A stretch of DNA of 37,669 nucleotides from Chloroflexota bacterium (lineage in GTDB: Bacteria > Chloroflexota > Anaerolineae > Anaerolineales > Villigracilaceae), in assembly GCA_021795965.1 (NCBI GenBank), contig JAJYOU010000019.1, forward strand, positions 1 to 37,669, read 5' to 3'. Both the position numbers and the translations under genes were made by a program. Positions 1 through 22,828 of this stretch are shown in pieces (position 1 is the stretch's first letter; each line of letters opens with the position of its first letter). The notes under the pieces are model-generated. The model made no database searches and was not told the DNA's origin. It worked only from the letters and a program-made list of their open reading frames with translations.

Positions 1-813
1 TTTGATCTCAGCGGGCGGGTTGCAGTGGTCACAGGCGGCTGCGGCTTGCTCGGCTCTGAATTTTGCCGCACCCTGGCTGAAGCTGGAGCAGCGGTTGCGA
101 TTGTTGATTTGAACGCAGAAAAATGCGCTCTGGCTGCTGCCGCTCTTTCAAAAAGTGGTTATCAGGCGCTGGGCATCCAGACGGATATCACCGACCCTCA
201 ATCAGTTCAGGCGATGGTCAATCAGGTGGTCGCAGCTTTTGGGCGGCTGGATATTCTTGTCAACAGCGCGGCGCTCGATCCAAAATTCGACCCGGATGCG
301 GTTGCAAAGGGAATCGCTGCCGGAAATTTTGAAGAATACCCCCTGGATCAGTGGAACGCAGCCCTGAATGTCAATCTGACGGGCACTTTTCTGGCAACCC
401 AGGCCTGTGTAAAACAAATGGTTGCCCAGGGGAAAAAAGGCAGCATTATTAACATATGCTCCACTTATGGTTTAAATGGACCAGACCAGCGCATTTACCG
501 CAAGCAGGATGGCTCACAGCCTGCCTTTAAACCCGTTTATTACACGGTGACCAAAGCCGGCATTGTTGGCTTTACAAAATACCTGGCAGCGTATTACATG
601 CAGACGGAAATTCGTGTGAATATGCTCACGCCGGGCGGAGTTTTTAATAATCATGACGACCTTTTTGTTAAAAACTATGCCGCAAAAACCATTCTCGGGC
701 GGATGGCTCATAAAGATGAGATGAACGGCGCTCTTCTTTTCCTGGCTTCAGATGCGTCGACCTATATGACAGGCAACAACGTTATCGTGGATGGCGGATG
801 GACCGCATGGTAG
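1..813 (+). CDS. SDR-family oxidoreductase (5' partial)
   Basis: Short-chain dehydrogenase/reductase, NAD(P)-dependent by family. The reading frame is open from base 1 (FDLSGRVAVVTGG...), so the true start lies before the window and the GTG at 25 is an internal valine. Visible SDR hallmarks are the Rossmann glycine motif TGGCGLLG close to the N-terminus, the NSAA motif after the fourth strand, the catalytic-region serine in NICSTYG, and the catalytic Tyr/Lys pair in YYTVTKAG. The C-terminal VDGGWTAW ending is typical of the family. The stop overlaps the start of the cytidylyltransferase-phosphatase gene by 16 bases at most, so the two are probably co-translated. From the context it may oxidise or reduce a sugar precursor of the nonulosonic acid. 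The substrate cannot be read from sequence. Family is near certain, role is inference. Confidence 0.9.
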   Translation, partial: FDLSGRVAVVTGGCGLLGSEFCRTLAEAGAAVAIVDLNAEKCALAAAALSKSGYQALGIQTDITDPQSVQAMVNQVVAAFGRLDILVNSAALDPKFDPDAVAKGIAAGNFEEYPLDQWNAALNVNLTGTFLATQACVKQMVAQGKKGSIINICSTYGLNGPDQRIYRKQDGSQPAFKPVYYTVTKAGIVGFTKYLAAYYMQTEIRVNMLTPGGVFNNHDDLFVKNYAAKTILGRMAHKDEMNGALLFLASDASTYMTGNNVIVDGGWTAW

Positions 814-2039
814 CCAAACCTGAAGTCCTGGCGATTATTCCAGCCCGCGGCGGCTCAAAGGGAATTCCCGGGAAAAATATCCGCAGTTTTTCCGGATATC
901 CCCTCGTAGCCTGGAGTATTGCGGCAGCCAGGCAGTCCGTTTTTGTAACCCGGATAATTGTGAGTACAGATAGTGAGGAAATTGCGGCGGTGGCGCGCGA
1001 ATGGGGCGCTGAAACTCCCTTCCTGCGACCGGCTGAATTTTCCCAGGATCGCACTACTGATTTGCCAGTTTTTGTGCATGCCCTCAAATGGCTGGAGGAA
1101 CACGAAGGTTATCGACCTGACGTGGTGGTCCAGCTCCGGCCGACTTCCCCAATTCGTCCGCAAAACTGCGTCGATGATGCAGTCCGCATTTTGCTTGATC
1201 ATCCCGATGGGCAGTCCGTCCGGGGCGTGGTGCCGGCTGGTCAGAATCCGCATAAAATGTGGCGCCTGCCCGGAGGCGAAAATGCCCCCATGAAAAACCT
1301 GCTCGCCGTGGATGGAATTGACGAACCATACAACGCACCCCGACAGATATTGCCCAATATCTACTGGCAAACCGGGCATGTTGACGCCATCCGTCCGCAG
1401 GCAATTTTAGACGGATCGATGAGTGGGAAAACGATCTACCCACTCCTGATTGATCCGAAATTTACGGTTGATCTGGATAACCTGAACGACTGGATACGCG
1501 CTGAATGGCTGGTGTCTTTTGGCGGGTTGGATATGGTCTGGCCGGGTCGTTCCAGGCGAAAAATGCCTCAAAACCCCAGGCTGCTTGTCCTGGATTTTGA
1601 TGGAGTCCTGACGGATAACCGCGTCTGGGTCAGTGAAACCGGTCAGGAAATGGTGGCAGCCTACCGCAGCGACAGCCTGATCCTGACCAAATTAAAACAA
1701 ACGGGAGTGACCACCATCATCCTCTCCTCCGAAGTCAACCCGGTCGTCACTGCCCGGGCGAAGAAAATGAAAATTGAAGCGATTCACGGCGTGGGGCTGG
1801 ATGATAAATGGTCTGTGCTGGAAAATCTACTGCGCGAGCGCAACATCCAACCTGGTGATGTGATTTACATCGGGAACGATCATAATGATTTGGAATGTAT
1901 GAAAAATGTCGGTTGGGGTGTGGCGGTGGCTGATGCTCAACCTGAAGTCATTCAAGCGGCTGATTTTGTGACCACCAAAGCCGGCGGTCACGGCGCTGTT
2001 CGTGAAATTTGTGATTTAATCCTTTCCAACTGGAAATAA
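798..2039 (+). CDS. CMP-nonulosonate cytidylyltransferase fused to KdsC-type HAD phosphatase
   Basis: Two-domain protein of 413 aa. Residues about 8-245 are a NeuA/CMAS-type cytidylyltransferase with the nucleotide-binding motif IIPARGGSKGIPGKN (13-27) and the LRPTSPIR segment near 113. These enzymes activate sialic-type sugars with CTP. Residues about 258-413 are a C0-type HAD phosphatase like KdsC: the nucleophile motif DFDGVLTD (266-273, Asp266 and Asp268), LSSE near 310, and the acidic GNDHNDLECM motif (359-368). The fusion resembles vertebrate CMAS, which carries a KdsC-like C-terminal domain. In bacteria the two activities are more often separate proteins. I infer that the HAD part may remove a 9-phosphate from the NeuB product before CMP transfer. 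Start is ATG 798 or ATG 807 (residue 4); neither has a strong ribosome site, and translation is likely coupled to the overlapping SDR gene. Confidence 0.88.
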   Translation: MDRMVAKPEVLAIIPARGGSKGIPGKNIRSFSGYPLVAWSIAAARQSVFVTRIIVSTDSEEIAAVAREWGAETPFLRPAEFSQDRTTDLPVFVHALKWLEEHEGYRPDVVVQLRPTSPIRPQNCVDDAVRILLDHPDGQSVRGVVPAGQNPHKMWRLPGGENAPMKNLLAVDGIDEPYNAPRQILPNIYWQTGHVDAIRPQAILDGSMSGKTIYPLLIDPKFTVDLDNLNDWIRAEWLVSFGGLDMVWPGRSRRKMPQNPRLLVLDFDGVLTDNRVWVSETGQEMVAAYRSDSLILTKLKQTGVTTIILSSEVNPVVTARAKKMKIEAIHGVGLDDKWSVLENLLRERNIQPGDVIYIGNDHNDLECMKNVGWGVAVADAQPEVIQAADFVTTKAGGHGAVREICDLILSNWK

Positions 2040-2114
2040 CCTGACGTTTGGTTAATCGCCTTGAACTCGATTGAACTGAATTTGATTTTAGACTGTCCAG
2101 CGTTCGCTCCATAT

Positions 2115-2120
2115 TACAAT
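2115..2120 (+). promoter_or_regulatory. Candidate -10 element before neuB-like gene
   Basis: TACAAT in the 109-bp gap between the cytidylyltransferase fusion and the neuB-like gene, the largest gap inside the glycan locus. No convincing -35 hexamer lies 16-18 bases upstream. A direct repeat of TTGAACT (about 2061 and 2071) lies further up. It may be an internal promoter but the support is weak. Confidence 0.2.
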
Positions 2121-2148: not shown

Positions 2149-3033
2149 ATGACTCGTGAAATAAAACTCGGAAACAGGCTGGTCGGAGATCAGCACCCCG
2201 CTTACATCATCGCTGAAATTGGAATTAACCATAACGGCGACGTGGAAATTGCCAAGAAAATGATCGAAGCTGCTGTCCATGCAGGAGCAGATGCGGTCAA
2301 GTTTCAAAAACGCACCCCCGAAGTCTGCACCCCACCCGAACAGCAAAAACAGATGCGTGAAACTCCCTGGGGATATATTACCTACCTGGATTATCGCTAC
2401 AAAGTGGAATTAGGTCTGGACCAGTACCGGGAGATTGATCAGCTCTGCAAAAAGCTGGGCATCGATTGGTTGGTGTCTGTCTGGGATGAACCCTCGGTCG
2501 ATTTCATGAGTCAGTTCGAAACCCCCGCGTATAAAATTCCATCCGCTTCTCTGACAGACAAGTCGCTTTTAAAATTTGTCCGTCAGACGGGTAAACCCCT
2601 GATCATTTCAACCGGCATGTCCACCATGCAGGAAATCAGGCGGGGTGTGGATGCGGTCGGATTGGATAACCTGGTCATTTTGCACTGCACCAGTGCCTAT
2701 CCCTGCGAACCTGAAGAACTAAACCTGCGCATGATTGAAACCCTGCGGCGTGAATACCCTGAAACTCCGATTGGATATTCCGGGCATGAAGTTGGACTGG
2801 TGCCATCCGCCGTCGCAGTGGCTCTTGGAGCCTGTGTCGTTGAACGGCATTTCACCCTGGACAGAGCCATGTGGGGCGGAGACCAGGCTGCCTCGGTCGA
2901 ACCCGGCGGTTTTGAAAAACTGGTTAAATATATTCGCGTGACCGAAGCCGGACTGGGAGATGGAGTCAAAAAGGTATACGACAGCGAGTTAAAATCCCTC
3001 AACAAACTGCGCCGCGTCAAAGACAGCGAGTAA
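2149..3033 (+). CDS. NeuB-type nonulosonic acid synthase lacking the SAF domain
   Basis: Condenses phosphoenolpyruvate with a hexose or hexosamine derivative to form a nine-carbon 2-keto acid, the committed step of sialic-like sugar synthesis. NeuB TIM-barrel signatures are EIGINHNG (23-30), GADAVKFQ (46-53), YKIPSASLTD, ISTGMST and GYSGHE. The family is normally about 335-350 aa with a C-terminal antifreeze/SAF domain. This protein ends at 294 aa just after the linker (SELKSLNKLRRVKDSE), so that domain is missing and is not encoded in the 24 bases before the next gene. Start is ATG 2149 with a good ribosome site (CCGGAGG) 8-9 bases upstream. It sits directly after the CMP-transferase/phosphatase, which fits one pathway. 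Exact substrate (ManNAc, ManNAc-6-P, Man-6-P or a dideoxy sugar) is not resolved. Confidence 0.88.
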   Translation: MTREIKLGNRLVGDQHPAYIIAEIGINHNGDVEIAKKMIEAAVHAGADAVKFQKRTPEVCTPPEQQKQMRETPWGYITYLDYRYKVELGLDQYREIDQLCKKLGIDWLVSVWDEPSVDFMSQFETPAYKIPSASLTDKSLLKFVRQTGKPLIISTGMSTMQEIRRGVDAVGLDNLVILHCTSAYPCEPEELNLRMIETLRREYPETPIGYSGHEVGLVPSAVAVALGACVVERHFTLDRAMWGGDQAASVEPGGFEKLVKYIRVTEAGLGDGVKKVYDSELKSLNKLRRVKDSE

Positions 3034-3057: not shown

Positions 3058-3912
3058 ATGAAACTAATCACAAAACTAAGGCAGTCCTTGCGAAGCCCAG
3101 TTAAATATGCGCAGGCGGCCATGCGTTGGAAGCGGGTAAACTTCGACGATTCTCCTCCGATTTTCGCGAATGCCAAACCCAAGAGCGGCTCACATTTGTT
3201 GCTTCAGATCATGAACGGGCTGTGTCTTGTGGCGCCTTACGCTTATGTGGCGGCTGATCCTGTTCGCACAATTAATGCCAGTGGGGGCAGGAGACCTGAA
3301 GACAGGGTATTGGAAGATCTCCAGGCAGTCCGCCCCGGCGTCATCGGCTGGGGCTATGTCGATGCCACTTCGCAGAATGTTGCTTATCTCTGTTCTCCCG
3401 GGCGGGTGAATTATTTCATATATCGCGACCCGCGCGACATGCTGGTTTCGCATGTTTTTTTTGCAACGGACATGCATCTCGGGCACGGCATGCATGCATA
3501 TTATCAGACCCTTCCAAGTTTTGCAGAGCGGTTAAAGATCGCAATTACCGGCATCAACCAGGACGGTCTCTACATGGTGGATGTGCGCCAACGATACCAG
3601 GGAGTTTTTGACTGGCTCAAGCAACCTGCCGCCCTCTGTATTCGTTTTGAAGATTTGATCGTGAACCGGAAAGTCACTTTAAACCGGGTTCTGGATCAGG
3701 TTGAAAAGACCGGATTTCGGATCCCAACTCCACGCGAAAAAGCACTCACCATCCTGGAGAATGCCATTCAACCGAAAAAATCGCGTACTTTTCGTTCCGG
3801 GAAAACAGGCGGCTGGAGGGAATATTTCACTCCAGAACTGAAATCACTTTTTAAAGAAACTGCCGGGGATCTTCTGATCCAACTCGGTTACGAGAAATCC
3901 AACGATTGGTAA
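3058..3912 (+). CDS. Sulfotransferase domain protein (copy 1)
   Basis: PAPS-dependent carbohydrate-type sulfotransferase, 284 aa. The 5'-phosphosulfate binding loop is PKSGSHLL (41-48) and the 3'-phosphate binding motif is YRDPRDMLVSH (122-132). A late RSGKTGGWREYF segment matches the conserved C-terminal PAPS-contact region of sulfotransferases. No signal peptide is apparent, so it is probably cytoplasmic and acts on a lipid-linked or nucleotide-linked precursor. It is clearly paralogous to the gene at 5592; the last third of the two proteins is nearly superimposable, ending GDLLIQLGYEK. The gene follows the neuB-like gene by 24 bases. A sulfotransferase beside nonulosonate genes suggests a sulfated acidic glycan, which is inference. 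Confidence 0.85.
   Translation: MKLITKLRQSLRSPVKYAQAAMRWKRVNFDDSPPIFANAKPKSGSHLLLQIMNGLCLVAPYAYVAADPVRTINASGGRRPEDRVLEDLQAVRPGVIGWGYVDATSQNVAYLCSPGRVNYFIYRDPRDMLVSHVFFATDMHLGHGMHAYYQTLPSFAERLKIAITGINQDGLYMVDVRQRYQGVFDWLKQPAALCIRFEDLIVNRKVTLNRVLDQVEKTGFRIPTPREKALTILENAIQPKKSRTFRSGKTGGWREYFTPELKSLFKETAGDLLIQLGYEKSNDW
3847..3882 (+). repeat. Near-identical 36-base segment shared by two sulfotransferase genes
   Basis: The segment at 3847-3882 matches 6420-6455 at 34 of 36 bases, including 22 consecutive identical bases (3861-3882 and 6434-6455), although the rest of the two genes is more diverged. It encodes the C-terminal LFKE-AGDLLIQ stretch of both sulfotransferases. It reflects duplication, possibly with local gene conversion. 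Confidence 0.8.
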
Positions 3913-3922: not shown

Positions 3923-5530
3923 TTGCAGAACCTGAAAGAATATCATCGTCAACAAATCCTGCGTCGTCTCGTCCGGCATTTCAACAATGCACGGATTTTC
4001 CTGATGAGCCTGCGAGTTGCGCGTCTCTCTCCAACCCCTAGCGATGCCAGACCTGTGGCTTTCTTTAAAGCTTCAAGCGGGATTGACGATTTTTCCTGGA
4101 ACAGCGCTTTCCATCTGCTGACATCCTGGGGGCTGCGATTAAGCGGGATCCCGGTTACTTATTTCGCCTGCGATCACGGCATGAGCCGCTGCGTTTTGGG
4201 AACGGATCGCGATCATCCCGAAAAAGAACCCCCATGCAAATCCTGCGTTTACCAATCAAAAACCCTTTACACCGGAGCATCGGTTGAATGGTTTCACTTC
4301 GAGCGGGACGCAGAGCTTGCTAAACAACTGGCTGGTTTATCGCTTAAAGATTTAATGTCCTTCGAATACAAGGATATCCCGCTTGCAGCACTGGTTCTGC
4401 CGGGGCTGCGCTGGATATTAAGACGATACAACCTGATCGAAAATGAGTCGACTCTATTTTTCTTTCGCGAGTACATTCTTTCTGCCTGGAATGTTGCCAG
4501 GCAGTTTGATAAATTTCTGGATGCGGTAAATCCTCGCAGCCTGGTGGTATTCAACGGGCAGTTTTTCCCGGAAGCCACCGCCAAATGGATCGCCACAAAG
4601 CGTGGAATCAGGGTGATCAGCCACGAAGTTGGTCTTTTGCCCATGACTGGATTTTTTACCGATGGAGAATCCACGGCTTACCCAATCACCATTCCCGAAA
4701 CCTTCGAATTGGACGAAAGCCAAAATTCACGATTGGATGCCTACCTTCAAAATCGTTTCCAGGGGAATTTCAGCATGGCAGGGGTCAAATTCTGGCCAAA
4801 CATGAAAGGGCTCGATCAAGCCCTTTTGAATAAAATGGGGAATTTCAAGCAGGTCGTCCCGGTGTTCACGAATGTGATCTTCGACACCAGCCAACCGCAT
4901 GCCAATACCATTTTCTCGGACATGTTCGTCTGGCTTGATCTGATTTTAGCGACTGCTCAAAAACATCCTGAAACGCTGTTTATCATTCGGGCACATCCAG
5001 ACGAAACCCGGGTTCGAAAATCCAGCTTGGAGACCGTGGCTGAGTGGGTTGACGAGTGCGGAGCGACCAGTCTTGATAATATTCTCTTCATTCCACCGCA
5101 GGAAAATATCAGCAGCTATGAGTTAATTGCACGATCCAAGTTTGTGGCGATTTACAACTCGACCATCGGGCTGGAAGCCTCGATCATGGGTTCGGCTGTC
5201 CTCTGCGCTGGAAAAGCACGCTTTACTCAATATCCTATCGTGTTTTTTCCCGAGAGCCGGGAAAATTATTCGCGAATGCTGGAAGAATTCCTGTCTGCTG
5301 ATACAATTACTCCCCCCGCAAATTTCCGTCGAAATGCGCGACGATTTTTGTACTATCAACTCTTCCGAACTTCCCTGCCCTTTGGCGATTTTCTCAAGAC
5401 AGGTATTCGCAGCACACATGCCATCCTGAAATGGTTCGACCCGCGTGATCTATTAAAATCGCCGGCAATTCTAACCGTGAAAAAGGGTATCATTAATCAG
5501 GAAGATTTCCTCCTGGAAGAAAAACTTTAG
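3923..5530 (+). CDS. Capsule-synthesis-type glycosyltransferase with N-terminal Cys4 motif
   Basis: A 535-aa soluble protein resembling capsule polysaccharide synthesis (GT-B-like) enzymes. The nucleotide-sugar half has IIRAHPDE (His358, Pro359) and a downstream YNSTIGLEASIMG motif (Ser413, Gly416, Glu418). This is the usual HP ... S-x-x-G-L-E-A arrangement of capsule and CDP-glycerol-type transferases. Near the N-terminus four cysteines, Cys83 and Cys90 (CDHGMSRC), then Cys105 and Cys108 (PPCKSC), form a plausible zinc or structural site. The called start is TTG 3923, 10 bases after the previous stop, without a clear ribosome site. ATG 4004 (residue 28) is an alternative start. It lies between two sulfotransferase genes, so it probably adds or transfers a sugar in the same glycan. 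Donor and acceptor unknown. Confidence 0.7.
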   Translation: MQNLKEYHRQQILRRLVRHFNNARIFLMSLRVARLSPTPSDARPVAFFKASSGIDDFSWNSAFHLLTSWGLRLSGIPVTYFACDHGMSRCVLGTDRDHPEKEPPCKSCVYQSKTLYTGASVEWFHFERDAELAKQLAGLSLKDLMSFEYKDIPLAALVLPGLRWILRRYNLIENESTLFFFREYILSAWNVARQFDKFLDAVNPRSLVVFNGQFFPEATAKWIATKRGIRVISHEVGLLPMTGFFTDGESTAYPITIPETFELDESQNSRLDAYLQNRFQGNFSMAGVKFWPNMKGLDQALLNKMGNFKQVVPVFTNVIFDTSQPHANTIFSDMFVWLDLILATAQKHPETLFIIRAHPDETRVRKSSLETVAEWVDECGATSLDNILFIPPQENISSYELIARSKFVAIYNSTIGLEASIMGSAVLCAGKARFTQYPIVFFPESRENYSRMLEEFLSADTITPPANFRRNARRFLYYQLFRTSLPFGDFLKTGIRSTHAILKWFDPRDLLKSPAILTVKKGIINQEDFLLEEKL

Positions 5531-5591: not shown

Positions 5592-6485
5592 ATGAAAAAG
5601 CAACTTGCTGCGATCATCCCGGCTGGATTGCGAAACCAGCTTCGACTTTCCATGTACCGCAATGAAGTACTGGTGCAAAGGATTAAATTTGCTGGAATCA
5701 AAGCCCCTCAAGGTGGATGGCCGGTGCTGATGGCTAATTCATTCCCAAAGAGCGGTTCCCATCTTCTGGACCAGATTCTGATGGGATTCTCAAAAGTTGC
5801 ACCCTTTTCACCCCATGTCCCCCTTCCATTTTTTTCCTATGACGGCGAGACGGGAAAAAAACACAGTGTTCAGGAAGCATTGGCTTATATCCACGCGCTT
5901 CACCCCCTGGATGTTACAAGCACACACCTGTTAGCCTGGCCCGAAGTGGTTGCGGAAGTATGCACTCCCAGGTTTGTCCCTTATATTATTTTCCGCGATC
6001 CACGGGATATTGTCGTTTCTCATGTTTTCTATATCACGGAGATGGAGCCCGGACACGCTCATTACAAATACTATAATGAGAATTTGAAAAATTTTGACGA
6101 ACGCTTGAAAGTAAGTATTCTGGGGCGGCCTGATGCTGATATCGAATTTCCAAATATCGCCCAGAGATTTGAACAGTACCAGGGCTGGCTGGAACGCCCG
6201 GAAATGCTCAAGGTGCGCTACGAAAGCTTGATCCATCACCGGCGGGAAGCCCTCGGGGAAATTGTCGATCATTTTTTGAAAAGAGTAAACACTCTGCCAA
6301 CCCCCCGCGAAGAAATTATTGACATTCTTGAGGCTTGTATCGATCCTCAAAAATCTCCCACATTTCGTTCCGGCAGAACCGGCGATTGGAACAAATATTT
6401 TAAGGAAGAGCATAAGAAACTTTTTAAAGAAGTTGCCGGGGATCTTCTGATCCAATTGGGGTATGAAAAGGATCAAAACTGGTAG
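5592..6485 (+). CDS. Sulfotransferase domain protein (copy 2)
   Basis: Second PAPS-dependent sulfotransferase, 297 aa, paralogous to the gene at 3058. The 5'-phosphosulfate loop is PKSGSHLL (52-59) and the 3'-phosphate motif is FRDPRDIVVSH (134-144). The C-terminal RSGRTGDWNKYF and AGDLLIQLGYEK stretches match copy 1. The middle regions differ, including the acceptor-facing part between about 70 and 120, so the two copies may sulfate different positions or acceptors. That is inference. The start ATG 5592 has an AGGAA ribosome site. It is separated from its paralogue by the capsule-type transferase, and followed 20 bases later by a GT2 gene. Confidence 0.85.
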   Translation: MKKQLAAIIPAGLRNQLRLSMYRNEVLVQRIKFAGIKAPQGGWPVLMANSFPKSGSHLLDQILMGFSKVAPFSPHVPLPFFSYDGETGKKHSVQEALAYIHALHPLDVTSTHLLAWPEVVAEVCTPRFVPYIIFRDPRDIVVSHVFYITEMEPGHAHYKYYNENLKNFDERLKVSILGRPDADIEFPNIAQRFEQYQGWLERPEMLKVRYESLIHHRREALGEIVDHFLKRVNTLPTPREEIIDILEACIDPQKSPTFRSGRTGDWNKYFKEEHKKLFKEVAGDLLIQLGYEKDQNW

Positions 6486-7474: not shown

Positions 7475-7484
7475 GGCAAATCAG

Positions 7485-13248: not shown

Positions 13249-13308
13249 ACAACCTCCGGGAAAAATTGATCTCAGGCAGAAGGAATTCCTGGAGTGAAGG
13301 AGAATCAC

Positions 13309-14979: not shown

Positions 14980-16569
14980 TTGAAAAGCTACCTTCGCAAT
15001 CCACTTGCCTCCAACTGGAGTTTCAGTATTCTGCTGATCCTCCTGGTTGGATCTGGAATATTCCTCCGGTTTAATGACCTTTCGGCGCCTCTGCTCGATT
15101 TTCACCCCACCCGCCAGTTGTTTGGGGCAATCAAGGCTCGCGGTCTATATTACGAAACGATTTCCAACACCCCGAACTCAGCCATTTTCGCCTCCTGCTT
15201 CCACTCGGAATGTCTTGATAACGAAACGATTTCCAACATCCCGAACTGGCAAAAGGATCTGGCTGTCCGGCAGTATTCGAATGAAGCCACCATTGAACCG
15301 CCGATCATGGAGACCCTGACAGCCAGGCTCTATGCTTATTGGGGAGTGCAAACCGCAATTCCCCGCGCCATTTCAGCAAGTTTCTGGCTGATCGGGGCGT
15401 TTTTCCTCTTCCTGCTCACAAAAAATCTCTCTGGTTCCCGGGTTGCTGCAGCCATTGGGCTGGCTTTTTACCTCTTGCTGCCTTATGCGGTCTCAGCCAG
15501 CCGGGCATTTCAGCCCGATCCATTAATGATCATGGCAATCATAATTTTTTGGTGGGCGATTGAAAATTGGGGCAGGCACCAGGGTTGGCGCTGGGCGATT
15601 GTTGCCGGAATCAGCGGAGGCATCGCAATTTTCGTCAAATTTCCTGCTGTCTTCTTCATCATCGCTCCTGCCCTGGCGATCATCCTGACGAGGGTTGGTT
15701 TCTTAAAGGCGTTCAAAACTCCTCAAATTTGGGTCATCATCCTGCTGGGGATTTTGCCTCCCGCGGGATACTTGTATTACGGTATTACTCTGCATGGCTT
15801 CCTGGGACAACAATTCAGTTCGCGTTTTTATCCAGGTTTATGGATCGATCCTGTTTTTTATTTACGCTGGCTGCTGAAAGTGGAAATCATTGCCAGCTTC
15901 CCCTGGATTGCAGCCGGGTTGACCGGTTGGTTGATATTCAGCAATAAGCAGGTAAAATTTTTCCTGGGCAGTTTGTGGGCTGCATATTTTGTTTTTGGCT
16001 TGACTTTTGCACATCACATCTCCAGCCATGATTACTACAGCTTGCCGTTGATTCCATTGCTGGCTCTTTGCCTGGCGCAGCTCTCCGTCCCGCTCTTCCA
16101 AATTTTCAAATCGAAACCTTCCCAGGTGGAGGATCAGGCTGGATTTGCGCTTTCAGGTCCTGCCCAGTTGTTTTGCCTGATCCTGGCTGGACTTACCATC
16201 TTGATCTTTACGGCAAATCAATATCTTGATCACCGCACAAATGATTACAGGGCACAGGCAGCATTCTGGGCTGAAGTCGGGCAGGCTGTAAACCACCAGC
16301 CGGGAGTAATTTCAATCACTACCGATTACGGCTATCCCCTGGCGTATTATGGTTGGCAAAATACCAGCCTCTGGCCGGCATCCGTGGATATTCAAAATTT
16401 CGATAAAACCTACCAGCAGCTGCTTTCCAATAAAGATTACTTTCTGGTGACTGACTTTGATGAATTCAACCGGCAACCGGAACTGCAGAAGCGGTTAAGC
16501 GAAAATTTCCCAATTCTGGTGCAAAACCGGACCTATCTCGTTTTTGATCTGGCTCATCCAAAGAAATAA
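14980..16569 (+). CDS. GT-C family membrane glycosyltransferase (module copy 1)
   Basis: Polytopic membrane protein of 529 aa of the ArnT/PMT-like GT-C type, which uses polyprenyl-phosphate sugars at the outer face of the membrane. The first loop has LLDFHPTRQLFGAIKARG (about 37-54), and a late loop has HHISSHDYYSLPLIP. Both are shared with the paralogue at 17542 (DFAPTRQLFSALKARG; HISTHDYYQLPLIP). After the first loop it carries an extra stretch flanked by a direct repeat (15152-15178 and 15221-15247) that the paralogue lacks. The start is TTG 14980 with AGGATA upstream. Together with the GT2 gene at 16584 it forms a two-gene unit that is repeated downstream. Confidence 0.8.
   Translation: MKSYLRNPLASNWSFSILLILLVGSGIFLRFNDLSAPLLDFHPTRQLFGAIKARGLYYETISNTPNSAIFASCFHSECLDNETISNIPNWQKDLAVRQYSNEATIEPPIMETLTARLYAYWGVQTAIPRAISASFWLIGAFFLFLLTKNLSGSRVAAAIGLAFYLLLPYAVSASRAFQPDPLMIMAIIIFWWAIENWGRHQGWRWAIVAGISGGIAIFVKFPAVFFIIAPALAIILTRVGFLKAFKTPQIWVIILLGILPPAGYLYYGITLHGFLGQQFSSRFYPGLWIDPVFYLRWLLKVEIIASFPWIAAGLTGWLIFSNKQVKFFLGSLWAAYFVFGLTFAHHISSHDYYSLPLIPLLALCLAQLSVPLFQIFKSKPSQVEDQAGFALSGPAQLFCLILAGLTILIFTANQYLDHRTNDYRAQAAFWAEVGQAVNHQPGVISITTDYGYPLAYYGWQNTSLWPASVDIQNFDKTYQQLLSNKDYFLVTDFDEFNRQPELQKRLSENFPILVQNRTYLVFDLAHPKK
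15152..15247 (+). repeat. In-frame 27-base direct repeat, 69-base period, inside a GT-C gene
   Basis: Two copies of a 27-base unit beginning ACGAAACGATTTCC lie at 15152-15178 and 15221-15247. They differ at a single base and are offset by exactly 69 bases (23 codons). Both encode ETISN-PN, and the reading frame stays open. The paralogous gene at 17542 has neither copy, and aligns again only at IEPP-E. This suggests insertion of a small repeat element, or local duplication, that preserved the frame. Confidence 0.85.
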
Positions 16570-16583: not shown

Positions 16584-17519
16584 ATGCGGGTTTCCATTGT
16601 TACACCATCTTTCAACCAGGCGAAATATTTGGAGCAAACCATTCGCTCCGTGCTGGATTCCAATATCCCTGAGTTGGAATACTTCGTCATGGATGGTGGT
16701 TCTTTGGATGGCAGTGTGGAAATTATAAAAAAATATTCCGACCGCCTGGCGGGATGGGTCTCTGAAATAGATCACGGCCAGGCAGATGCGATCAATAAGG
16801 GTCTGCGCCAGTCTACGGGGGATGTGGTCGCCTGGCTAAATTCGGATGATTTTTACCTCCCTGGAGCAATTTCAAAAGCGCTTTGTTTTTTTGAACTTCA
16901 CCCCGATGCAGGTTTGATCTACGGGAATGTTCTGTCGGTGGATGCAGCCGGAAAAACGTTTAATCTCCAAACTTTTCGCTCCTACGACCTGGTTGACCTG
17001 ATGTCCTTTCATATCATCAGCCAGCCCGGGGTTTTCATGCGTCGCTCCATTTTGGAAAAAGCTGGATTATTGGAGCCCCGCTATCATTTATTGCTTGATC
17101 ACCAGCTCTGGTTGCGCATCGCCAGCTTGTCGAAAATTTACTATGTTCCCGAAACTCTGGCGGCTGCACGATATCACCCCGAAGCAAAAAATTTATCAAG
17201 GACCGCGGATTTTGGCAGCGAAGCGTTTCAAATTGTTGAATGGATGAAATCAGATCCTGCTTTCCAGTCTTTGTACAACAAAAATCAGAACCAAATTTTG
17301 GGTGGTGCACACCGCCTGAATGCTTTTTACCTGCTGGACGGCGGGTTTTACGTTCAATCACTCAAAGCATACTGGCAGGCTTTTCGGTTTAATCCTTCGG
17401 TGGTATTAAAAGAGTGGTACCGCATCATTTACGCACTCCTGGCAATGGCAGGTTTAAAAAACCTGAGAAAATTCTACATTCAAATTCGGCAATGGTTAAA
17501 AACAAAGAAATTATCATGA
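16584..17519 (+). CDS. Family 2 glycosyltransferase (module copy 1)
   Basis: GT-A fold family 2 transferase, 311 aa. The nucleotide-binding motifs are VSIVTPSFNQ (3-12) and MDGGSLDGS (36-44), with the metal-binding NSDD (86-89) in WLNSDDFYLPGA. The HGQADAINKG motif lies between them. It is paralogous to the gene at 19038, which shows the same sequence of motifs. The C-terminal region about 210-311 is longer than in the paralogue and is helical and basic, possibly membrane-associated. It starts 14 bases after the GT-C gene and ends 22 bases before the next GT-C gene. Sugar unknown. Confidence 0.88.
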   Translation: MRVSIVTPSFNQAKYLEQTIRSVLDSNIPELEYFVMDGGSLDGSVEIIKKYSDRLAGWVSEIDHGQADAINKGLRQSTGDVVAWLNSDDFYLPGAISKALCFFELHPDAGLIYGNVLSVDAAGKTFNLQTFRSYDLVDLMSFHIISQPGVFMRRSILEKAGLLEPRYHLLLDHQLWLRIASLSKIYYVPETLAAARYHPEAKNLSRTADFGSEAFQIVEWMKSDPAFQSLYNKNQNQILGGAHRLNAFYLLDGGFYVQSLKAYWQAFRFNPSVVLKEWYRIIYALLAMAGLKNLRKFYIQIRQWLKTKKLS

Positions 17520-17541: not shown

Positions 17542-19038
17542 GTGACCTGGTTCTTTGGTAATAAAAAATCGCTGATCGCCGTCGTGGTGCTCGCGCTCAT
17601 TCTCGCTGCGGGGATCCGTTTTTATGATCTGACCGATCTCCCGCTGGATTTTGCCCCAACGCGCCAATTGTTTTCAGCCTTAAAAGCAAGGGGAATGTAT
17701 TATGCCATGCTTCCGGCAAGCGAAAATCCGCCTTTTCGGGAAATAGCGATTAATCAATGGCATTCGCTTCAAGTGATCGAACCACCCTTGATTGAAAGCC
17801 TGGTGGCACTGACTTACCGTGTTTTTGGAGAGCACCTCTGGATCGCACGTATTTATTCATTGCTCTTCTGGGTCCTGGCCGGTATTCCACTTTTCTTCCT
17901 CGCAAAGGAGATCGCCGGTCCGGGAGGGGCTTTCATCTCCCTGCTCTATTACCTTTTCCTGCCTTACGGAGTGATTGCAAGCCGGACATTTCAACCGGAT
18001 CCATTAATGGTCGCACTGATCGCGACCGCAGCCTGGGCGAGTTTCCATTGGGCAAATCGACGTGACTGGAAATGGGCGTTGATTACCGGTATATTAAACG
18101 GTCTGGCAATCTTTGTCAAAAATGTTTCGGTTTTTCCGCTTGCCTTTGCGATGCTGGGGCTGGTTTTTGAATTTGGATTCGTAAAATCCATCAAAGACAA
18201 GCAAACCTGGACCATTGCAGGGTTGTCTTTGCTTCCATCAGCGCTTTACACACTTTATGGCGTGGTTTTCGCCGGTTTCCTCGGTCAACAATTTGCTTTC
18301 CGATTCTTCCCTCAGCTCTGGCTTGACCCGGGGTTTTATTTGCGCTGGTTGGGTCAAATCGAAGGAGTGGTTGGGTTCGGCGCCTTTGCCGCTGGAATGA
18401 TCGGCATATTTGTCGCAAAAAGGCGCGGAATGTTTTTTCTCACCGGCTTATTCGCGGGTTATATTGTTTACGGCATGACCTTTGCCTATCACATCAGCAC
18501 CCATGATTATTACCAGCTTCCTCTCATCCCGATTGCAGCCCTGGCGCTGTCGCCAATTGCCGAAACATTGCTGGAATCGATCGCGAAAATCAGGTCAGGA
18601 ACCTTCGTGCGCGCGCTCCTGGCACTCTTGATCATGTTGGTTGTCTCCATCCAGCTTTGGGATGTTCGGGTAACCCTTGCCCGCGATGACTGGCGCCCCG
18701 ATGCCGCTTTTTGGCAGGGATTGGGCGAAAAATTGGGCTATTCCGGACCGGTTTTGACCATTGCCCAGGATTATGGCTATCGCCTGGCTTACTGGGGCTG
18801 GCAGGAGGTCGATTCGTGGTACGATTCGGGCGACCTTGACCTGCGCGCTCTTGACGGTCGGAAGATTGACTTGCTGCAGAGGTTCCAGCAACAGGTCATG
18901 GGTAAAAAATATCTGGTAATTACTCAATTAAATAAACTGGATAACCAGCCAGAAATTAAAAGTTATATTTATAAGACATACCCGGTTTTTGCACAGGACA
19001 AAGGGTATGTAATATTTGACCTGACAAAAACAAAATAA
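17542..19038 (+). CDS. GT-C family membrane glycosyltransferase (module copy 2)
   Basis: Polytopic membrane protein of 498 aa, paralogous to the gene at 14980. Shared landmarks are the DFAPTRQLFSALKARGMYY first loop, IEPPLIESL, SRTFQPDPLM after the middle membrane segments, GFLGQQFAFRFFPQLW, and HISTHDYYQLPLIP. It lacks the repeat-flanked insertion of copy 1 and is therefore shorter. Start is GTG 17542 preceded by GGACGGG; an overlapping ATG at 17540 is in another frame. The stop overlaps the next gene's ATG by one base (TAATG). Role is probably transfer of a polyprenyl-linked sugar on the outer face of the membrane. The acceptor is unknown. Confidence 0.8.
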   Translation: MTWFFGNKKSLIAVVVLALILAAGIRFYDLTDLPLDFAPTRQLFSALKARGMYYAMLPASENPPFREIAINQWHSLQVIEPPLIESLVALTYRVFGEHLWIARIYSLLFWVLAGIPLFFLAKEIAGPGGAFISLLYYLFLPYGVIASRTFQPDPLMVALIATAAWASFHWANRRDWKWALITGILNGLAIFVKNVSVFPLAFAMLGLVFEFGFVKSIKDKQTWTIAGLSLLPSALYTLYGVVFAGFLGQQFAFRFFPQLWLDPGFYLRWLGQIEGVVGFGAFAAGMIGIFVAKRRGMFFLTGLFAGYIVYGMTFAYHISTHDYYQLPLIPIAALALSPIAETLLESIAKIRSGTFVRALLALLIMLVVSIQLWDVRVTLARDDWRPDAAFWQGLGEKLGYSGPVLTIAQDYGYRLAYWGWQEVDSWYDSGDLDLRALDGRKIDLLQRFQQQVMGKKYLVITQLNKLDNQPEIKSYIYKTYPVFAQDKGYVIFDLTKTK

Positions 19039-19826
19039 TGCATCAACCTCTCATATCAATCGTTACACCCTCTTTTAATCAAGCCAATTATATCGAAGCA
19101 ACCATCCGTTCTGTGCTGGAACAGGATTACCCGGCAATTGAATATATTATTGTTGACGGTGGTTCAACTGATGGGTCTGTGGACATCATCAGGCGGTATG
19201 AAAATCGCCTTGCTTGGTGGGCATCCGAACCGGATCACGGGCAGACAGATGCTCTCAATAAAGGTTTTGCGAAAGCGACCGGTGAAATTCTCGCATGGAT
19301 TAATTCTGATGATACTTATGAACCGGGTGCCTTGAAGGCTGCCGCAAATTATCTGGTTGGGCATCCAGAAATTGGCATGGTTTATGCGGATACGAATTTT
19401 ATCGATGGAAATGGTCGAAACATCGGTCAATTCCCGGCAGCGGCTACAGATCTCCGCCGGTTAAAACGGGGTTATGTTCATATCCCGCAGCAGGCGACTT
19501 TCTTCCGGGCAGATCTTTGGCAACAAGTGGGACCGCTGGATCCTGATTTTTACTTTGCCATGGATTATGATCTCTGGGTGAGGCTGGCAAAAATTACACA
19601 ATTCACTTATTTGCCCGGAGAGACCTGGGCAAACTTCCGCCTCCATACTTCAGGCAAAACTATGGCTGCTGATGACCGCTGCTGGCCTGAAATGTTAAAA
19701 GTACATTATCGGGATGGCGGCTCATTCTTTTCTCCAATTGTTGCAAAATATGCCCTTCGAAAAATGGCAGCCCCATTCCTCACCTGGCAGCGAAAAAACA
19801 GAATTAAACGTTATGAAGACAGCTAA
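19038..19826 (+). CDS. Family 2 glycosyltransferase (module copy 2)
   Basis: GT-A fold family 2 transferase of 262 aa. Motifs are ISIVTPSFNQ (7-16), VDGGSTDGS (39-47), HGQTDALNKG, and the metal-binding NSDD (89-92) in WINSDDTYEPGA, with HIPQQATFFR and MDYDLWVRL further on. Its start overlaps the GT-C stop by one base, so the pair is translationally coupled. It is closest in this window to the gene at 16584, which has the same position relative to its own GT-C partner. It may make the polyprenyl-phosphate sugar or add a sugar in the cytoplasm for its partner; this is inference. Confidence 0.88.
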   Translation: MHQPLISIVTPSFNQANYIEATIRSVLEQDYPAIEYIIVDGGSTDGSVDIIRRYENRLAWWASEPDHGQTDALNKGFAKATGEILAWINSDDTYEPGALKAAANYLVGHPEIGMVYADTNFIDGNGRNIGQFPAAATDLRRLKRGYVHIPQQATFFRADLWQQVGPLDPDFYFAMDYDLWVRLAKITQFTYLPGETWANFRLHTSGKTMAADDRCWPEMLKVHYRDGGSFFSPIVAKYALRKMAAPFLTWQRKNRIKRYEDS

Positions 19827-19838: not shown

Positions 19839-20549
19839 ATGAATTTCATTTTTAGACCACCATCGATGGAAGATTTTATCCGCCTGCTGCAAGCGTGGCG
19901 TTTTTGGGTCATTGGAGCTTTAATTGGCGGGCTGGCGGGGGCGGGGTTTTATGCAATTTTCCCGCCTGAATACCAGGCTCATGCCACCGTGGCGGTCAGT
20001 TTCAACATGGAAAAAGCCTGGCCAAACAAGCCCGATAACGAGTTGTTTTATTATCTTGATCGTGAAAGTCGAAAAGTGGAAGAAATTGCCTGGTCGGATC
20101 TCACCCTCCAGACCGTGACCGATCAAACCGGATTGGATGCGGCTGCGCTGCGCGCCGGCAAGCTGGAACTCAGCCAGCCCGAGGACGGCGGCTGGCATTT
20201 TTATGCCAGTGACCCATCTCCAATCATCGCAGAAAAACTGGCATCTGCCTGGGCGGAAGCTTTTACCAGCCAGGTGCAGCAGGGGCTGCTGGTGGAGGTT
20301 GAGCTGGATGCTGCCCGTAAGGCGCTGATCCAATCGCCGGACGATGCAAAATTAAAAGCAGAAATAGGCTCTCTGGAAGCCAAATCCCTGGCAATCACCC
20401 CCGAACTCCAGATTTCTATTTCCCATAGTAAAAACCTCTCGGCAGAACGGAAAACCAACCTCGCAACCTATATCCTGGCAGGCAGCGCTCTCTTCCTGGC
20501 ATTGGCTGGTTTGGGCATTCTATTTTTTGGAGATCGAAAAAGTGCCTAA
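19839..20549 (+). CDS. Wzz-like chain-length regulator / polysaccharide co-polymerase
   Basis: A 236-aa protein with two membrane segments, one near residues 22-42 (FWVIGALIGGLAGAGFYAIF) and one near 210-230 (LATYILAGSALFLALAGLGIL), enclosing an extracytoplasmic helical region. This is the topology of Wzz/Wzc N-terminal domains that set polysaccharide length. PPEYQAHATV after the first membrane segment fits the conserved Wzz start (P..Y.A.A.V). There is no kinase domain. It ends inside the start region of the polymerase/ligase-like gene, a usual Wzz-Wzy pairing. Sequence similarity beyond topology is modest. Confidence 0.65.
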   Translation: MNFIFRPPSMEDFIRLLQAWRFWVIGALIGGLAGAGFYAIFPPEYQAHATVAVSFNMEKAWPNKPDNELFYYLDRESRKVEEIAWSDLTLQTVTDQTGLDAAALRAGKLELSQPEDGGWHFYASDPSPIIAEKLASAWAEAFTSQVQQGLLVEVELDAARKALIQSPDDAKLKAEIGSLEAKSLAITPELQISISHSKNLSAERKTNLATYILAGSALFLALAGLGILFFGDRKSA

Positions 20550-22068
20550 AGTCACATGGGCTTCCAGCGCGCGCTTTCTGTGGGCTCTTGTACTGGTGAC
20601 TCTTCCCGTCACCAGTTTTCGCGTCATGCCGTTCATGGGATCCGGGACTTCCGTCAGGCCACTGGCACTATATCCCTTGGTTTTACTGCTCCCGGTGTTA
20701 TTCATCCGGTTGAAGCGAGGCGAAATCGCCCGACCCATGCCGGGAGCCGTCACAATTCTCCTGGCGTTTATGATTGTTGCCCTCGCGTTGACTGCTTTTG
20801 GCGCATCCTTCCCGCCGAACGAATTACGGGGGATTGACTATGCTGACCGGGCAATTCGGGCAGTTGTGACGCTCGGCATTGGTTTGGCTTTTTTTATGGC
20901 AGCCGTTTGGATGAACCAGGATCTGTCGGATTTAAAATTTTCGGTCCGATGGTTGCTGCTTGGGTTGGCTGTGGATCTGGCTTGGGCAGCGGTTCAATTT
21001 GTGGGATTAAACAGTGGTCACAGGCAGGTATTGCGGCAAATTCAAAACTTGTTTTCTGTACGCGGGTTGGTAAAAAATAAGCGGGTCTCTGGTTTTGCTT
21101 TTGAACCTTCCTGGCTGGCAGGACAGATTTCATCCCTTTACCTGCCCTGGCTCCTGGCAGCAGTATTGATGCGCGTTCGCTCCTGGGATTCCGGGACTAA
21201 AAATCCCACTGATTTTGGCTGGTCATCCTGGAAGAGGGTCTCCGGTTTTATTGAACCAGTCCTCCTGGTTGGAGCGGTCATCGGGTTATTGATGACTTAT
21301 TCCAGGTCAGGGCTGGTGATTGCGGCTCTTTCAGGACTGGTAACGTTTCTCCTGGTGGGTAAGGAAGCCTGGAAAATATTTTGGAGTTGGTTTCTCCGTG
21401 GTTTTGATCGCCATCGCTGGAACAATTTCTTATCAACACTGCAGAATTTAGGTTTGCGGATGCTCTTGATCGGGATCCTGCTGGCATTTGTCATCGGAGC
21501 AGGAGTTTTCCTGACCGATAAAGGGTACATATCTGCGGTCATAAAAGCGGATAAGTCAGATATTTTCGCGTTTGCCCAGGATGTTTACCTGGGACCACGC
21601 CTGGCTTATTCGAGTGCTGCCATGAGCGCATTTTTTGCGCACCCCTTAACGGGAGCTGGATTGGGAGCCAGTGGTTTTTGGATTTACCCGAATATGCCCG
21701 ACTGGGTGTTATCCGGGAATCCGGAGATTGCACAGCAGCTCAATCCAAATTCAAATCTTTATCCGAATCCCAAAAACCTTTTTGTACGACTGCTTGCCGA
21801 AACTGGCTTGGTCGGATTTATCTTATTCCTTTCGTTTTACTTCAATTTATTCGGAGAAGGTTTAAAATTATTAAAGAATGAATCGGTAAAAGATCGTCGA
21901 TCTGCCCGTTGGCTGGCAGCTGCCGGATTTTTTGCATTAACATCCATCTTTTTACAGGGAATTTCACAGGATTCTTTTGCCATGCCCGAAATATGGATAA
22001 ACCTGGGAATCCTGGCAGGTTCAGCCGGATATTTTTTGAGCAATGCCAAAGCAGGAAATTTACCATGA
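20542..22068 (+). CDS. O-antigen ligase / Wzy-type polymerase-like membrane protein
   Basis: Polytopic membrane protein of about 508 aa of the O-antigen ligase/polymerase superfamily. The diagnostic parts are MTYSRSGL in the central membrane segment, then the large outer loop with HPLTGAGLGASGFW, and NPKNLFVRLLAETGLVGF before the last membrane helices. I prefer GTG 20542, overlapping the Wzz-like stop by 8 bases, because a GGAG site lies about 9 bases before it. A TTG at 20527 would add five residues. It probably polymerises repeat units or ligates the finished glycan at the cell surface. With no outer membrane or lipid A expected in this organism, ligation onto protein or a cell-wall anchor is possible. 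Confidence 0.78.
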   Translation: MPKVTWASSARFLWALVLVTLPVTSFRVMPFMGSGTSVRPLALYPLVLLLPVLFIRLKRGEIARPMPGAVTILLAFMIVALALTAFGASFPPNELRGIDYADRAIRAVVTLGIGLAFFMAAVWMNQDLSDLKFSVRWLLLGLAVDLAWAAVQFVGLNSGHRQVLRQIQNLFSVRGLVKNKRVSGFAFEPSWLAGQISSLYLPWLLAAVLMRVRSWDSGTKNPTDFGWSSWKRVSGFIEPVLLVGAVIGLLMTYSRSGLVIAALSGLVTFLLVGKEAWKIFWSWFLRGFDRHRWNNFLSTLQNLGLRMLLIGILLAFVIGAGVFLTDKGYISAVIKADKSDIFAFAQDVYLGPRLAYSSAAMSAFFAHPLTGAGLGASGFWIYPNMPDWVLSGNPEIAQQLNPNSNLYPNPKNLFVRLLAETGLVGFILFLSFYFNLFGEGLKLLKNESVKDRRSARWLAAAGFFALTSIFLQGISQDSFAMPEIWINLGILAGSAGYFLSNAKAGNLP

Positions 22069-22799
22069 TAATTCTTTCTGTCGGAATGCCTCGGGCGGGA
22101 TCAGGCTGGCATTACAATTTGATCCATGATTTGATGGCTACAACCGGTTGCGATGACGCGCGCGATATCAGGACACAATTTGGTCTGGAGAATATCCTGA
22201 CGGAGGTTAATTGCAATATCGGAGTTCTGAGCGCCCGCCGTCTAATCATTGTCGCCTGGCCGGCATTGCTTGGTCACACCTTTGTGATTAAAGCCCATGC
22301 CGGACCGAGCATCTGGGCACGCGGGATGATCCGGGCAGGACTGATCCGGGCAACCTATATCTATCGAGACCCGCGCGATGCGATGCTCTCAGCTTTTGAT
22401 TATGGGAAACGTGTTTTGGAAAAACAGGGCCGTCCGAACGCATTTTCGCACCTGACCGACTTCAACCAGACCATGGAATTTTTCGTCGAATATGTGGAAG
22501 GCTGGGAGGAATGGATGAAGGTTCCCGCTGTCTTGAAATCACGTTACGAAGATCTGCTGCAAAATTATGACGCCGAAGCTGTTAAACTGATCAACCATCT
22601 TCACTTGGATCCTTCAGCCGCCGCGGTTAAGGCTGTGATTGAAAAATATCGTCCTGCCGGACCGTCCCAGGCCAAACAGGGAACCCATTTTTTCAAAGGT
22701 CAGATCGGCCGGTTCCGCGAGCGCTATTCAGAGGAAGAACAACAAATCCTGGCAAATAAATTTGGAGCGGCGCTGGAAAAAATGGGATATGATATTTAA
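22065..22799 (+). CDS. Sulfotransferase domain protein (third, divergent)
   Basis: A 244-aa sulfotransferase. The 5'-phosphosulfate loop is PRAGSGW (9-15), placed right at the N-terminus, and the 3'-phosphate motif is YRDPRDAMLSAF (100-111). A late FKGQIGRFRERYSEEEQ segment matches the C-terminal region of the family. I chose ATG 22065, which overlaps the previous stop (ATGA) with AGGAA upstream; the open frame extends further up but inside the polymerase gene. It is more distant from the other two sulfotransferases than they are from each other. As the last gene of the locus it may sulfate the polymerised or lipid-linked glycan. Confidence 0.83.
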   Translation: MIILSVGMPRAGSGWHYNLIHDLMATTGCDDARDIRTQFGLENILTEVNCNIGVLSARRLIIVAWPALLGHTFVIKAHAGPSIWARGMIRAGLIRATYIYRDPRDAMLSAFDYGKRVLEKQGRPNAFSHLTDFNQTMEFFVEYVEGWEEWMKVPAVLKSRYEDLLQNYDAEAVKLINHLHLDPSAAAVKAVIEKYRPAGPSQAKQGTHFFKGQIGRFRERYSEEEQQILANKFGAALEKMGYDI

Positions 22800-22828
22800 G
22801 ATGTTCGAGTGAACTTCTAAATTTTTTT
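22799..22828 (+). terminator. Candidate Rho-independent terminator at end of glycan locus
   Basis: A stem AGATGTTC / GAACTTCT (22799-22806 and 22811-22818, one T-T mismatch, GAGT loop) is followed three bases later by seven T residues (22822-22828). It overlaps the last base of the sulfotransferase stop codon. The stem is AT-rich, so strength is moderate. Confidence 0.45.

Follow-up and report, generated by a model that had tools for sequence, protein, structure and literature searches.

A candidate locus for a sulfated, ulosonate-containing surface glycan in an Anaerolineales bacterium

Gene content of the locus

The window analyzed here is the whole 37,669-nucleotide contig JAJYOU010000019.1 (C37) of a Chloroflexota genome of the family Villigracilaceae (GCA_021795965.1; 1.94 Mb, 62% complete). 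On its forward strand, between positions 1 and 22799, the list of open reading frames (ORFs) holds 20 co-directional genes around a short NeuB-family synthase, and their content suggests the synthesis of a sulfated, ulosonate-containing surface glycan. The window starts at a contig end, and the locus runs on into a second contig of this genome, C35 (12,009 bp), one end of which is identical to the window's first 127 bases. From this exact overlap and the gene order in relatives, C35 appears to lie directly upstream of the window; the two joined therefore give a locus of at least 24 genes with four sulfotransferases. The genes are listed below, with bit scores given against the family cut-off where both apply.

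C35, 6213–7244: ST0, the fourth sulfotransferase (PF00685, 62.7 bits vs 22)
C35, 7263–8294: Gfo/Idh oxidoreductase
C35 (L156), 8443–10167: 3'-phosphoadenosine 5'-phosphosulfate (PAPS) synthase, a fusion of ATP-sulfurylase (282 bits) and adenosine 5'-phosphosulfate (APS) kinase (APS_kinase, 195 bits); equivalog NF004040, 842.1 vs 669
C35, 10219–11811: membrane protein (PMT_2 24.4, slightly under the 26.1 cut-off)
1–813, + strand: SDR1, PtmA-like short-chain dehydrogenase (SDR) with its first codons on C35 (PF13561, 1.1e-46)
798–2039, + strand: NeuA-HAD, cytidine-5'-monophosphate (CMP)-sugar cytidylyltransferase fused to a KdsC-type phosphatase (CTP_transf_3 77.1 bits; TIGR01670 KdsC 108.9 vs 106.95)
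2149–3033, + strand: NeuB-family ulosonate synthase without a SAF domain, 294 residues (PF03102, 265.8 bits vs 22.1, model positions 1–241 of 241)
3058–3912, + strand: ST1, PAPS-dependent sulfotransferase (PF00685, Sulfotransfer_1, 35.2 bits vs 22; PAPS-site segments kept)
3923–5530, + strand: Caps, candidate KpsC/WbbB-like ulosonate transferase of GT-B fold (PF05159, Capsule_synth, 23.4 vs 20)
5592–6485, + strand: ST2, sulfotransferase, 40% identical to ST1 (PF00685, 37.4 vs 22)
6506–7474, + strand: GT2a, family 2 glycosyltransferase (GT2; PF00535, 79.9 bits)
7482–8180, + strand: NeuA2, second, divergent cytidylyltransferase (PF02348, 92.2 bits; PDB 9t4z, PpNeuA, 63.9 bits)
8177–10246, + strand: large membrane protein with C-terminal TPR, possibly GT-C (TPR_19, 26.4 vs 25, the sole match above cut-off)
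10247–12289, + strand: large membrane protein, possibly GT-C (no Pfam match; relatives in 5/17 same-family regions)
12292–13248, + strand: D-2-hydroxyacid dehydrogenase family protein (PF02826, 194 bits)
13294–14073, + strand: SDR2, short-chain dehydrogenase (PF13561, 178.8 bits)
14118–14960, + strand: MptE/DUF115-like protein, candidate CMP-ulosonate transferase (PF01973, 42.4 vs 34.6)
14980–16569, + strand: PMT_2 membrane glycosyltransferase (43.8 vs 26.1)
16584–17519, + strand: GT2b (93.4 bits)
17542–19038, + strand: PMT_2 membrane glycosyltransferase (63.2 vs 26.1)
19038–19826, + strand: GT2c (97.3 bits)
19839–20549, + strand: weakly Wzz-like chain-length protein (18.3 vs 25.5, under cut-off)
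20527–22068, + strand: Wzy_C polymerase or ligase (47.5 vs 31.7)
22065–22799, + strand: ST3, sulfotransferase of a second type, 20% identical to ST1 (PF00685, 30.8 vs 22, scanned as a longer ORF from 21909)

The listed ORF starts of NeuA2 and ST3 lie too far upstream; their translations make starts near 7482 and 22065 likelier. SDR1 scored under the cut-offs of the best 25 of 221 NCBIfam families, led by PRK09186 (192 vs 255), with PtmA at 132 vs 350. Many relatives share much of this gene order, which ruled out chance or artefact as the source of the cluster. Scans of the window for tRNAs and for RNA families at gathering score found neither.

The first-pass annotation of this DNA had described eighteen co-directional genes; the cluster it reported is thus real and larger than first described, and several of its assignments needed correction. 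Pfam matches bear out the two CMP-sugar cytidylyltransferases (CTP_transf_3 in both), the NeuB-type synthase, the DUF115/MptE-like protein, the three sulfotransferases and the three GT2s. Four GT-C-like membrane proteins had been proposed: two match PMT_2 above cut-off, while for those at 8177–10246 and 10247–12289 the GT-C models of Pfam gave no match at E 0.01, one of the two proteins having TPR/repeat matches only. The ligase/polymerase-like call stands, the Wzz-like one falls below its cut-off. The two SDRs, the D-2-hydroxyacid dehydrogenase and the Capsule_synth protein had not been named, and the PAPS synthase, Gfo/Idh oxidoreductase and fourth sulfotransferase had been missed because they lie beyond the window.

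All four sulfotransferases, ST0 to ST3, exceed the PF00685 cut-off. A segment RDPRD..S is present in 13/13 aligned ST1–ST3 sequences and a segment FR.G+.G.W in ST1 and ST2; we take both to be PAPS-binding motifs. Supply of PAPS is accounted for by the linked synthase, which meets its NCBIfam equivalog cut-off. In the accessible portion of one survey (PMC9723792), the two Chloroflexi metagenome-assembled genomes (MAGs) covered are described as free of sulfotransferases, unlike the Villigracilaceae here.

The SAF-less NeuB and its relatives

The window NeuB ends at 294 residues, against 356 in the SAF-type NeuB encoded elsewhere in the same genome, and has neither a SAF (antifreeze) domain nor a counterpart of Arg314. 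Shortening by a frameshift was ruled out, as all 24 of its region relatives end at 290–296 residues. An apparent NeuA-NeuB fusion in one relative (G072, a 736-codon open frame) was also rejected, the two genes ending and beginning in different frames. NCBIfam gives the short NeuB just two matches, NeuB and PseI, both under the equivalog cut-offs (260.5 vs 399.65 and 218.4 vs 340.25); the SAF-type NeuB of the same genome misses them as well (258.0 and 239.8), so that cut-off failure alone is a weak discriminator.

Relative to Neisseria meningitidis NeuB (PDB 1xuu), the window enzyme has Ser134 for Glu134, Ser110 for Thr110, Trp112 for Phe112 and Ser182 for Asn184, and keeps counterparts of Glu25, Lys53, Gln55, Lys129, Ser213, His215, Glu234, His236 and Asp247. 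Among 19 sequences, E23, K51, Q53, K129, S211, H213, E232 and H234 are invariant. The Glu134 position was then read by motif match in 106 short loci, which were chosen by likeness to the window NeuB and some of which repeat a genome: it is Ser, Ala, Leu, Thr, Cys or Gly, and Glu in 0/105 readable cases. Glu134 is kept in the genome's own SAF-type NeuB and missing from four of five long forms, so that its loss extends beyond the enzymes without a SAF domain. Long NeuBs of other Chloroflexota, SAF-bearing by length (L029, L030, L032, L033), carry Asp or Val at this position and are intermediates between the two kinds. A SAF-less NeuB is also represented in the PDB by 6ncs, presumably from Leptospira, whose 290-residue chain aligns along its full length (132 bits with a single query) and which differs in having Asp where the window enzyme has Ser at the Glu134 position.

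In the meningococcal enzyme, as described in the accessible part of PMC6795526, Arg314 of the antifreeze domain contacts N-acetylmannosamine and the R314A variant is inactive; the enzyme does not take mannose, and the related 3-deoxy-D-manno-octulosonate (Kdo)-8-phosphate synthases have no antifreeze domain. Membership in a subfamily without SAF and without Glu134 lowers the likelihood of an ordinary N-acyl nonulosonic acid as product and would favor 2-keto-3-deoxy-D-glycero-D-galacto-nononic acid (Kdn) or a Kdn derivative. Three features support a substrate without an N-acyl group: the missing Arg314 counterpart, the missing Glu134 and the adjacent fused phosphatase-cytidylyltransferase.

The fused enzyme has a partial parallel in Bacteroides thetaiotaomicron, whose Kdn pathway reportedly comprises a synthase, a Kdn-9-phosphate phosphatase and a CMP-Kdn synthetase; both systems thus combine a phosphatase and a cytidylyltransferase with a NeuB-family synthase. 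The HAD half is nearer to KdsC-type phosphatases and to its top PDB match, 3mmz (133 bits), than to the B. thetaiotaomicron phosphatase: it reaches 92.7 bits against the Kdn-9-phosphate phosphatase model, under the equivalog cut-off of 180, and 65.1 bits against PDB 3e81, which we take to be the B. thetaiotaomicron enzyme.

A phylogenetic tree separated the short NeuB forms from the long ones (99/96; with long-branch warnings) and placed the window NeuB in one clade with the sole NeuB of four Streptomyces genomes. Six actinobacterial genomes, these four included, hold exactly one NeuB each, SAF-less by length and 60–63% identical to that of the window. In three of the six loci a counterpart of NeuA-HAD is 37–38% identical. 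Like the window, the Streptomyces loci set a SAF-less NeuB beside a NeuA-HAD (3/4, the fourth being cut short). Streptomyces walls carry a Gal/Kdn polymer, according to the parts of PMC11481543 and PMC7831098 that were available, and this combination of a sole SAF-less NeuB with Kdn-containing walls supports a Kdn-type product. The teichulosonic acid cluster of Streptomyces coelicolor is given as SCO4873-4882 in the available part of PMC13011467; its polymer, as far as these sources describe it, is anionic and phosphate-free, as the product proposed here would be. In the S. thermodiastaticus locus (L146), one strand encodes a PF07388 polysialyltransferase and, judged by eye, a GT2; the opposite strand encodes a DUF6716 transferase, NeuA-HAD and NeuB. 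By annotation, rather than by S. coelicolor sequence, this order fits SCO4877-4881, listed in the accessible part of PMC2267785 as hypothetical, glycosyltransferase, hypothetical, transferase and polysaccharide-biosynthesis protein. No window protein matches the PF07388 and DUF6716 transferases of the Streptomyces locus.

Distribution of the core and the sulfation genes

In a phylum sample of 301 genomes, the short NeuB was found in all 17 genomes of the same family besides its own (f1; 74–82% identity) and in all six of the sister family (f2; 66–70%), with no match in one genome of a third family of the order (f3) or in 13 other listed genomes of the same class. Outside the class, one Chloroflexota genome (L057, G202) has a SAF-less NeuB of 54% identity, with NeuA and SDR1 relatives about 12 kb off.

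We compared the 23 regions around these NeuB genes, several of which are short, so that genes distant from NeuB are undercounted. NeuA-HAD and NeuB are present in 17/17 f1 and 6/6 f2 regions, SDR1 in 17/17 and 5/6, and Caps in 16/17 and 6/6. NeuA2, the hydroxyacid dehydrogenase, the MptE-like protein, GT2b and GT2c were each found in all six f2 regions, and SDR2 in five. The sulfation genes are distributed differently: the PAPS synthase occurs in 16/17 f1 vs 0/6 f2 regions, and ST1 downstream of NeuB in 15/17 vs 0/6. None of the six f2 regions, in which the core is present, contains a sulfation gene; this count covers the regions, the f2 whole genomes not having been searched for sulfotransferases. 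The locus of the cultured species Bellilinea caldifistulae (L101, NZ_LGHJ01000024.1) has the core too, and its region gave no match to a sulfation gene. We read this pattern as an older core locus with a sulfation module that was later gained or else lost.

The family was then surveyed as a whole (61 genomes, the window's own included), counting NeuB at 70% identity or more, with one partial copy and two with an internal stop included, and any PF00685 match anywhere in a genome as a sulfotransferase. NeuB was found in 54 genomes, a sulfotransferase in 48 and the PAPS synthase in 46, with all three in 45; the co-occurrence of sulfotransferases with NeuB/NeuA across relatives, on which the first-pass annotation had made its reading depend, was thereby borne out. 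PAPS synthase and sulfotransferases co-vary strongly (both 45, synthase only 1, sulfotransferase only 3, neither 12; Fisher p 3e-9), an effect that is overstated because the genomes are related rather than independent and some are incomplete. In 42 of the 46 genomes the PAPS synthase lies 2.3–6.5 kb upstream of NeuB on the same contig and strand; the remaining four carry it on a different contig, and the window's own genome is one of these, with the two contigs adjoining. The PAPS synthase and ST0 are both present in a further locus (L141). The linked synthase and its co-variation with the sulfotransferases support sulfation of the glycan.

Candidate transferases, product and alternatives

Candidates for ulosonate transfer came from predicted structures. 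The Caps model (mean predicted local distance difference test score, pLDDT, 91.2) has a GT-B fold. Its best Foldseek E-values were to UDP-GlcNAc 2-epimerases, which are of the same fold class, followed by the β-Kdo transferases WbbB and KpsC at somewhat higher TM-scores (0.42–0.47 by target). Like KpsC and WbbB it matches PF05159 and shows GT-B fold matches, with a weak alignment to KpsC 6mgd (E 0.005); unlike a close relative it shares only 12–17% identity with them. The MptE-like model (pLDDT 85) was nearest to Maf 5mu5 (1.9e-5), followed by HPPK (3.4e-5) and human sialyltransferases (1.4e-3 and 3.2e-3), and in sequence searches of the PDB gave non-significant matches only (CstII sialyltransferase, E 0.057). 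It shares PF01973 and this top fold match with the Maf/DUF115 nonulosonate transferases and differs from them as a single-domain protein of 280 residues with 12% identity, the kinase HPPK being almost as close. Between 1 and 22799 the locus has a single PF05159 protein and no ABC exporter, where a Group 2 (KpsMT) capsule system would have such an exporter and a KpsC/KpsS pair. Of Wzx/Wzy features, Wzy_C is above and Wzz below cut-off, three PF02397 initiating enzymes are encoded elsewhere in the genome, and no Wzx flippase was found among the window proteins, the rest of the genome not having been searched. Homologues of the LCP wall ligase occur in 21/21 family genomes searched, which is compatible with wall attachment.

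Taken as a whole, the genes make it somewhat probable that the product is a surface glycopolymer, sulfated and carboxylated, which resembles teichulosonic acid and whose ulosonate has no N-acyl group, being Kdn or one of its derivatives. The parts of this reading differ in strength. That the product is an exported glycan is very likely, and we hold with nearly as much confidence that it is sulfated; its ulosonate is equally likely to be made by the window NeuB. Absence of an N-acyl group is favored on balance, and anchoring to the wall, rather than attachment to protein or release, is a tentative suggestion. Of the earlier proposal of an exported acidic glycan with nonulosonic acid and sulfate, the NeuB-derived sugar and the sulfate are thus supported, while the ordinary N-acyl form has become less likely. 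In such a pathway NeuB would condense phosphoenolpyruvate with a sugar phosphate free of N-acyl groups, possibly mannose 6-phosphate or an oxidized or epimerized relative made with SDR1 and the Gfo/Idh protein. The HAD half would strip the phosphate and the other half of the fusion would form the CMP-sugar, CMP-Kdn or a derivative. Caps and the MptE-like protein may add ulosonate residues to a chain, which the sulfotransferases would sulfate with PAPS from the ATP-sulfurylase–APS kinase fusion and which the Wzz/Wzy_C-type proteins would extend or attach.

The same sulfated glycan could instead carry an N-acylated ulosonate, whether N-acetylneuraminic acid (Neu5Ac), legionaminic acid or pseudaminic acid, that comes from this NeuB or from a second, SAF-type locus. 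The genome does have such a locus (L162; G000:C19, 4397–12311), in which a dehydratase and an RmlD-like reductase (both by eye) and a separate CTP_transf_3 protein accompany the 356-residue NeuB; 13/23 of the f1 and f2 relatives encode a long NeuB 7–30 kb away from the short NeuB and on its contig, and the only NCBIfam matches of the short NeuB are NeuB and PseI. Set against this are the missing SAF domain and Glu134, the scores under both equivalog cut-offs, and the best matches of the locus proteins, which include no NeuC-type epimerase, aminotransferase or acetyltransferase family; we consider this alternative unlikely. NeuA2 was also considered as the partner of the SAF-type NeuB, which is not supported given that locus's own CTP_transf_3. 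Similarly unlikely is protein glycosylation of a Maf-like kind, onto pilin, flagellin or an S-layer protein, with Wzy_C as an O-oligosaccharyltransferase and no wall polymer. It would accord with Maf as the best fold match of the MptE-like model, with the PMT_2 proteins and with a weak TfpM match of the Wzy_C protein; that match (20.8 bits vs 600) is far from its cut-off, the Wzz-like partner, itself under cut-off, hints at chain-length control, and no acceptor-protein gene was recognized among the locus proteins, flagellin, pilin and S-layer genes not having been searched for. Sulfotransfer_1 enzymes act on varied acceptors, and further sulfotransferases occur elsewhere in many family genomes (among the matches listed), so those of the locus might act on a lipid or small molecule as mere neighbors of the glycan genes. 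In many f1 genomes, however, glycosyltransferase genes are interspersed with ST1, ST2 and the PAPS synthase, and PAPS synthase and sulfotransferases are mostly gained or missing as a pair, which makes this the least probable of the three.

A number of observations weigh against the proposed sulfated polymer with a Kdn-type ulosonate. The chemistry of the product is deduced from genes. The fold matches of Caps and the MptE-like protein, at low TM-scores, are weak hints of fold, not assignments. The actinobacterial sequences are not firmly the nearest neighbors of the Anaerolineales NeuBs in a tree with long-branch warnings, and NeuA-HAD was matched in only 3/6 of their loci (L142, L146, L153), L148 being truncated 81 bases ahead of NeuB, with no match in L127 or L151. 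Neither the Streptomyces nor the other actinobacterial loci match SDR1, a sulfotransferase or the PAPS synthase, and the window, unlike Streptomyces, has additional oxidoreductases and another cytidylyltransferase; plain Kdn could be made without SDR1, Gfo/Idh, the hydroxyacid dehydrogenase, SDR2 or NeuA2. Another table, in the accessible part of PMC8269224, assigns the sialic acid synthase to SCO4880 instead of SCO4881, which makes exact orthology tentative. Among 40 loci outside Anaerolineales, the same NeuB subfamily stands beside a class-III aminotransferase in 17 and beside transketolase-like genes in 15 (one call of each confirmed in Pfam), and the subfamily therefore need not have a single substrate. 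As a trait of the locus, sulfation extends to most of the family and lies outside the shared core: eight of the 54 family genomes with NeuB, from three genera, have no sulfation genes, three other family genomes have sulfotransferases without NeuB or PAPS synthase, four have none of the three, one (G335) has NeuB and PAPS synthase without a sulfotransferase, and in one locus (L102) an ST0-like gene stands with no PAPS synthase close by. Conversely, the PAPS synthase, ST1 and ST2 do occur in a Leptolinea MAG of the sister family (L105), which falls on the Anaerolineaceae side of the NeuB tree.

The 17 aminotransferase loci (L112, L115, L116, L118, L121, L123, L126, L130, L131, L133, L135-L137, L143, L147, L149, L152) span Bacteroidota, Ignavibacteriota and some Chloroflexota, mostly also with transketolase-like genes and a sterol-desaturase-like ORF (by eye), and possibly represent a different ulosonate pathway.

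These genes may bear on anaerobic granular sludge, whose extracellular polymeric substances contain pseudaminic/legionaminic acid (Pse/Leg) and then Kdn, with NeuAc in aerobic sludges only and sulfated glycoconjugates in all samples, according to the available part of Chen et al. 2023 (PMC10483923). That part also states that Neu5Ac and Kdn synthases could not be separated by annotation and that few sulfotransferases were found with reference sequences; the main text contains no word beginning 'anaerolin' or 'chloroflex'. A genome with both a short and a SAF-type NeuB would match the Pse/Leg and Kdn of granules, which is suggestive only. The locus offers candidate genes and a linked PAPS synthase for finding sludge producers, with a sequence rule of no SAF, no Glu134 and an adjacent phosphatase-cytidylyltransferase. 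It could help explain the sulfated and sialylated slime of wastewater granules, these common filamentous bacteria being a candidate source. SAF-less NeuB-family genes, here seen in several phyla, may make a product other than N-acetylneuraminate. Literature on nonulosonic acids, Kdn and sulfation in Chloroflexi/Anaerolineae, as far as its accessible portions go, yielded no earlier description of the locus, which is weak evidence of absence. In a bolder and, in all its parts, rather improbable extension, a sulfo-teichulosonic acid would be an Anaerolineales wall polymer in which Kdn-type residues provide the carboxylates and sulfate from a lineage-specific module takes the place of phosphate. 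That module of PAPS synthase and at least four sulfotransferases would have entered an older locus at several points. Jointly with the product of the SAF-type locus in the same genomes, such a polymer would account for much of the Kdn, Pse/Leg and sulfate in anaerobic granule slime.

Three further genes lie downstream in the window. In several f2-type loci, relatives (51–62% identity) of a PF04464 glycerophosphotransferase-like protein (27676–29133, − strand) are encoded upstream of the NeuB locus. A small NBR1-type Ig domain protein (25611–26207, − strand) has several homologues in a row after QueG in some relatives, and SecA (29472–33491, + strand; 1339 residues) has a long stretch between its matched domains.

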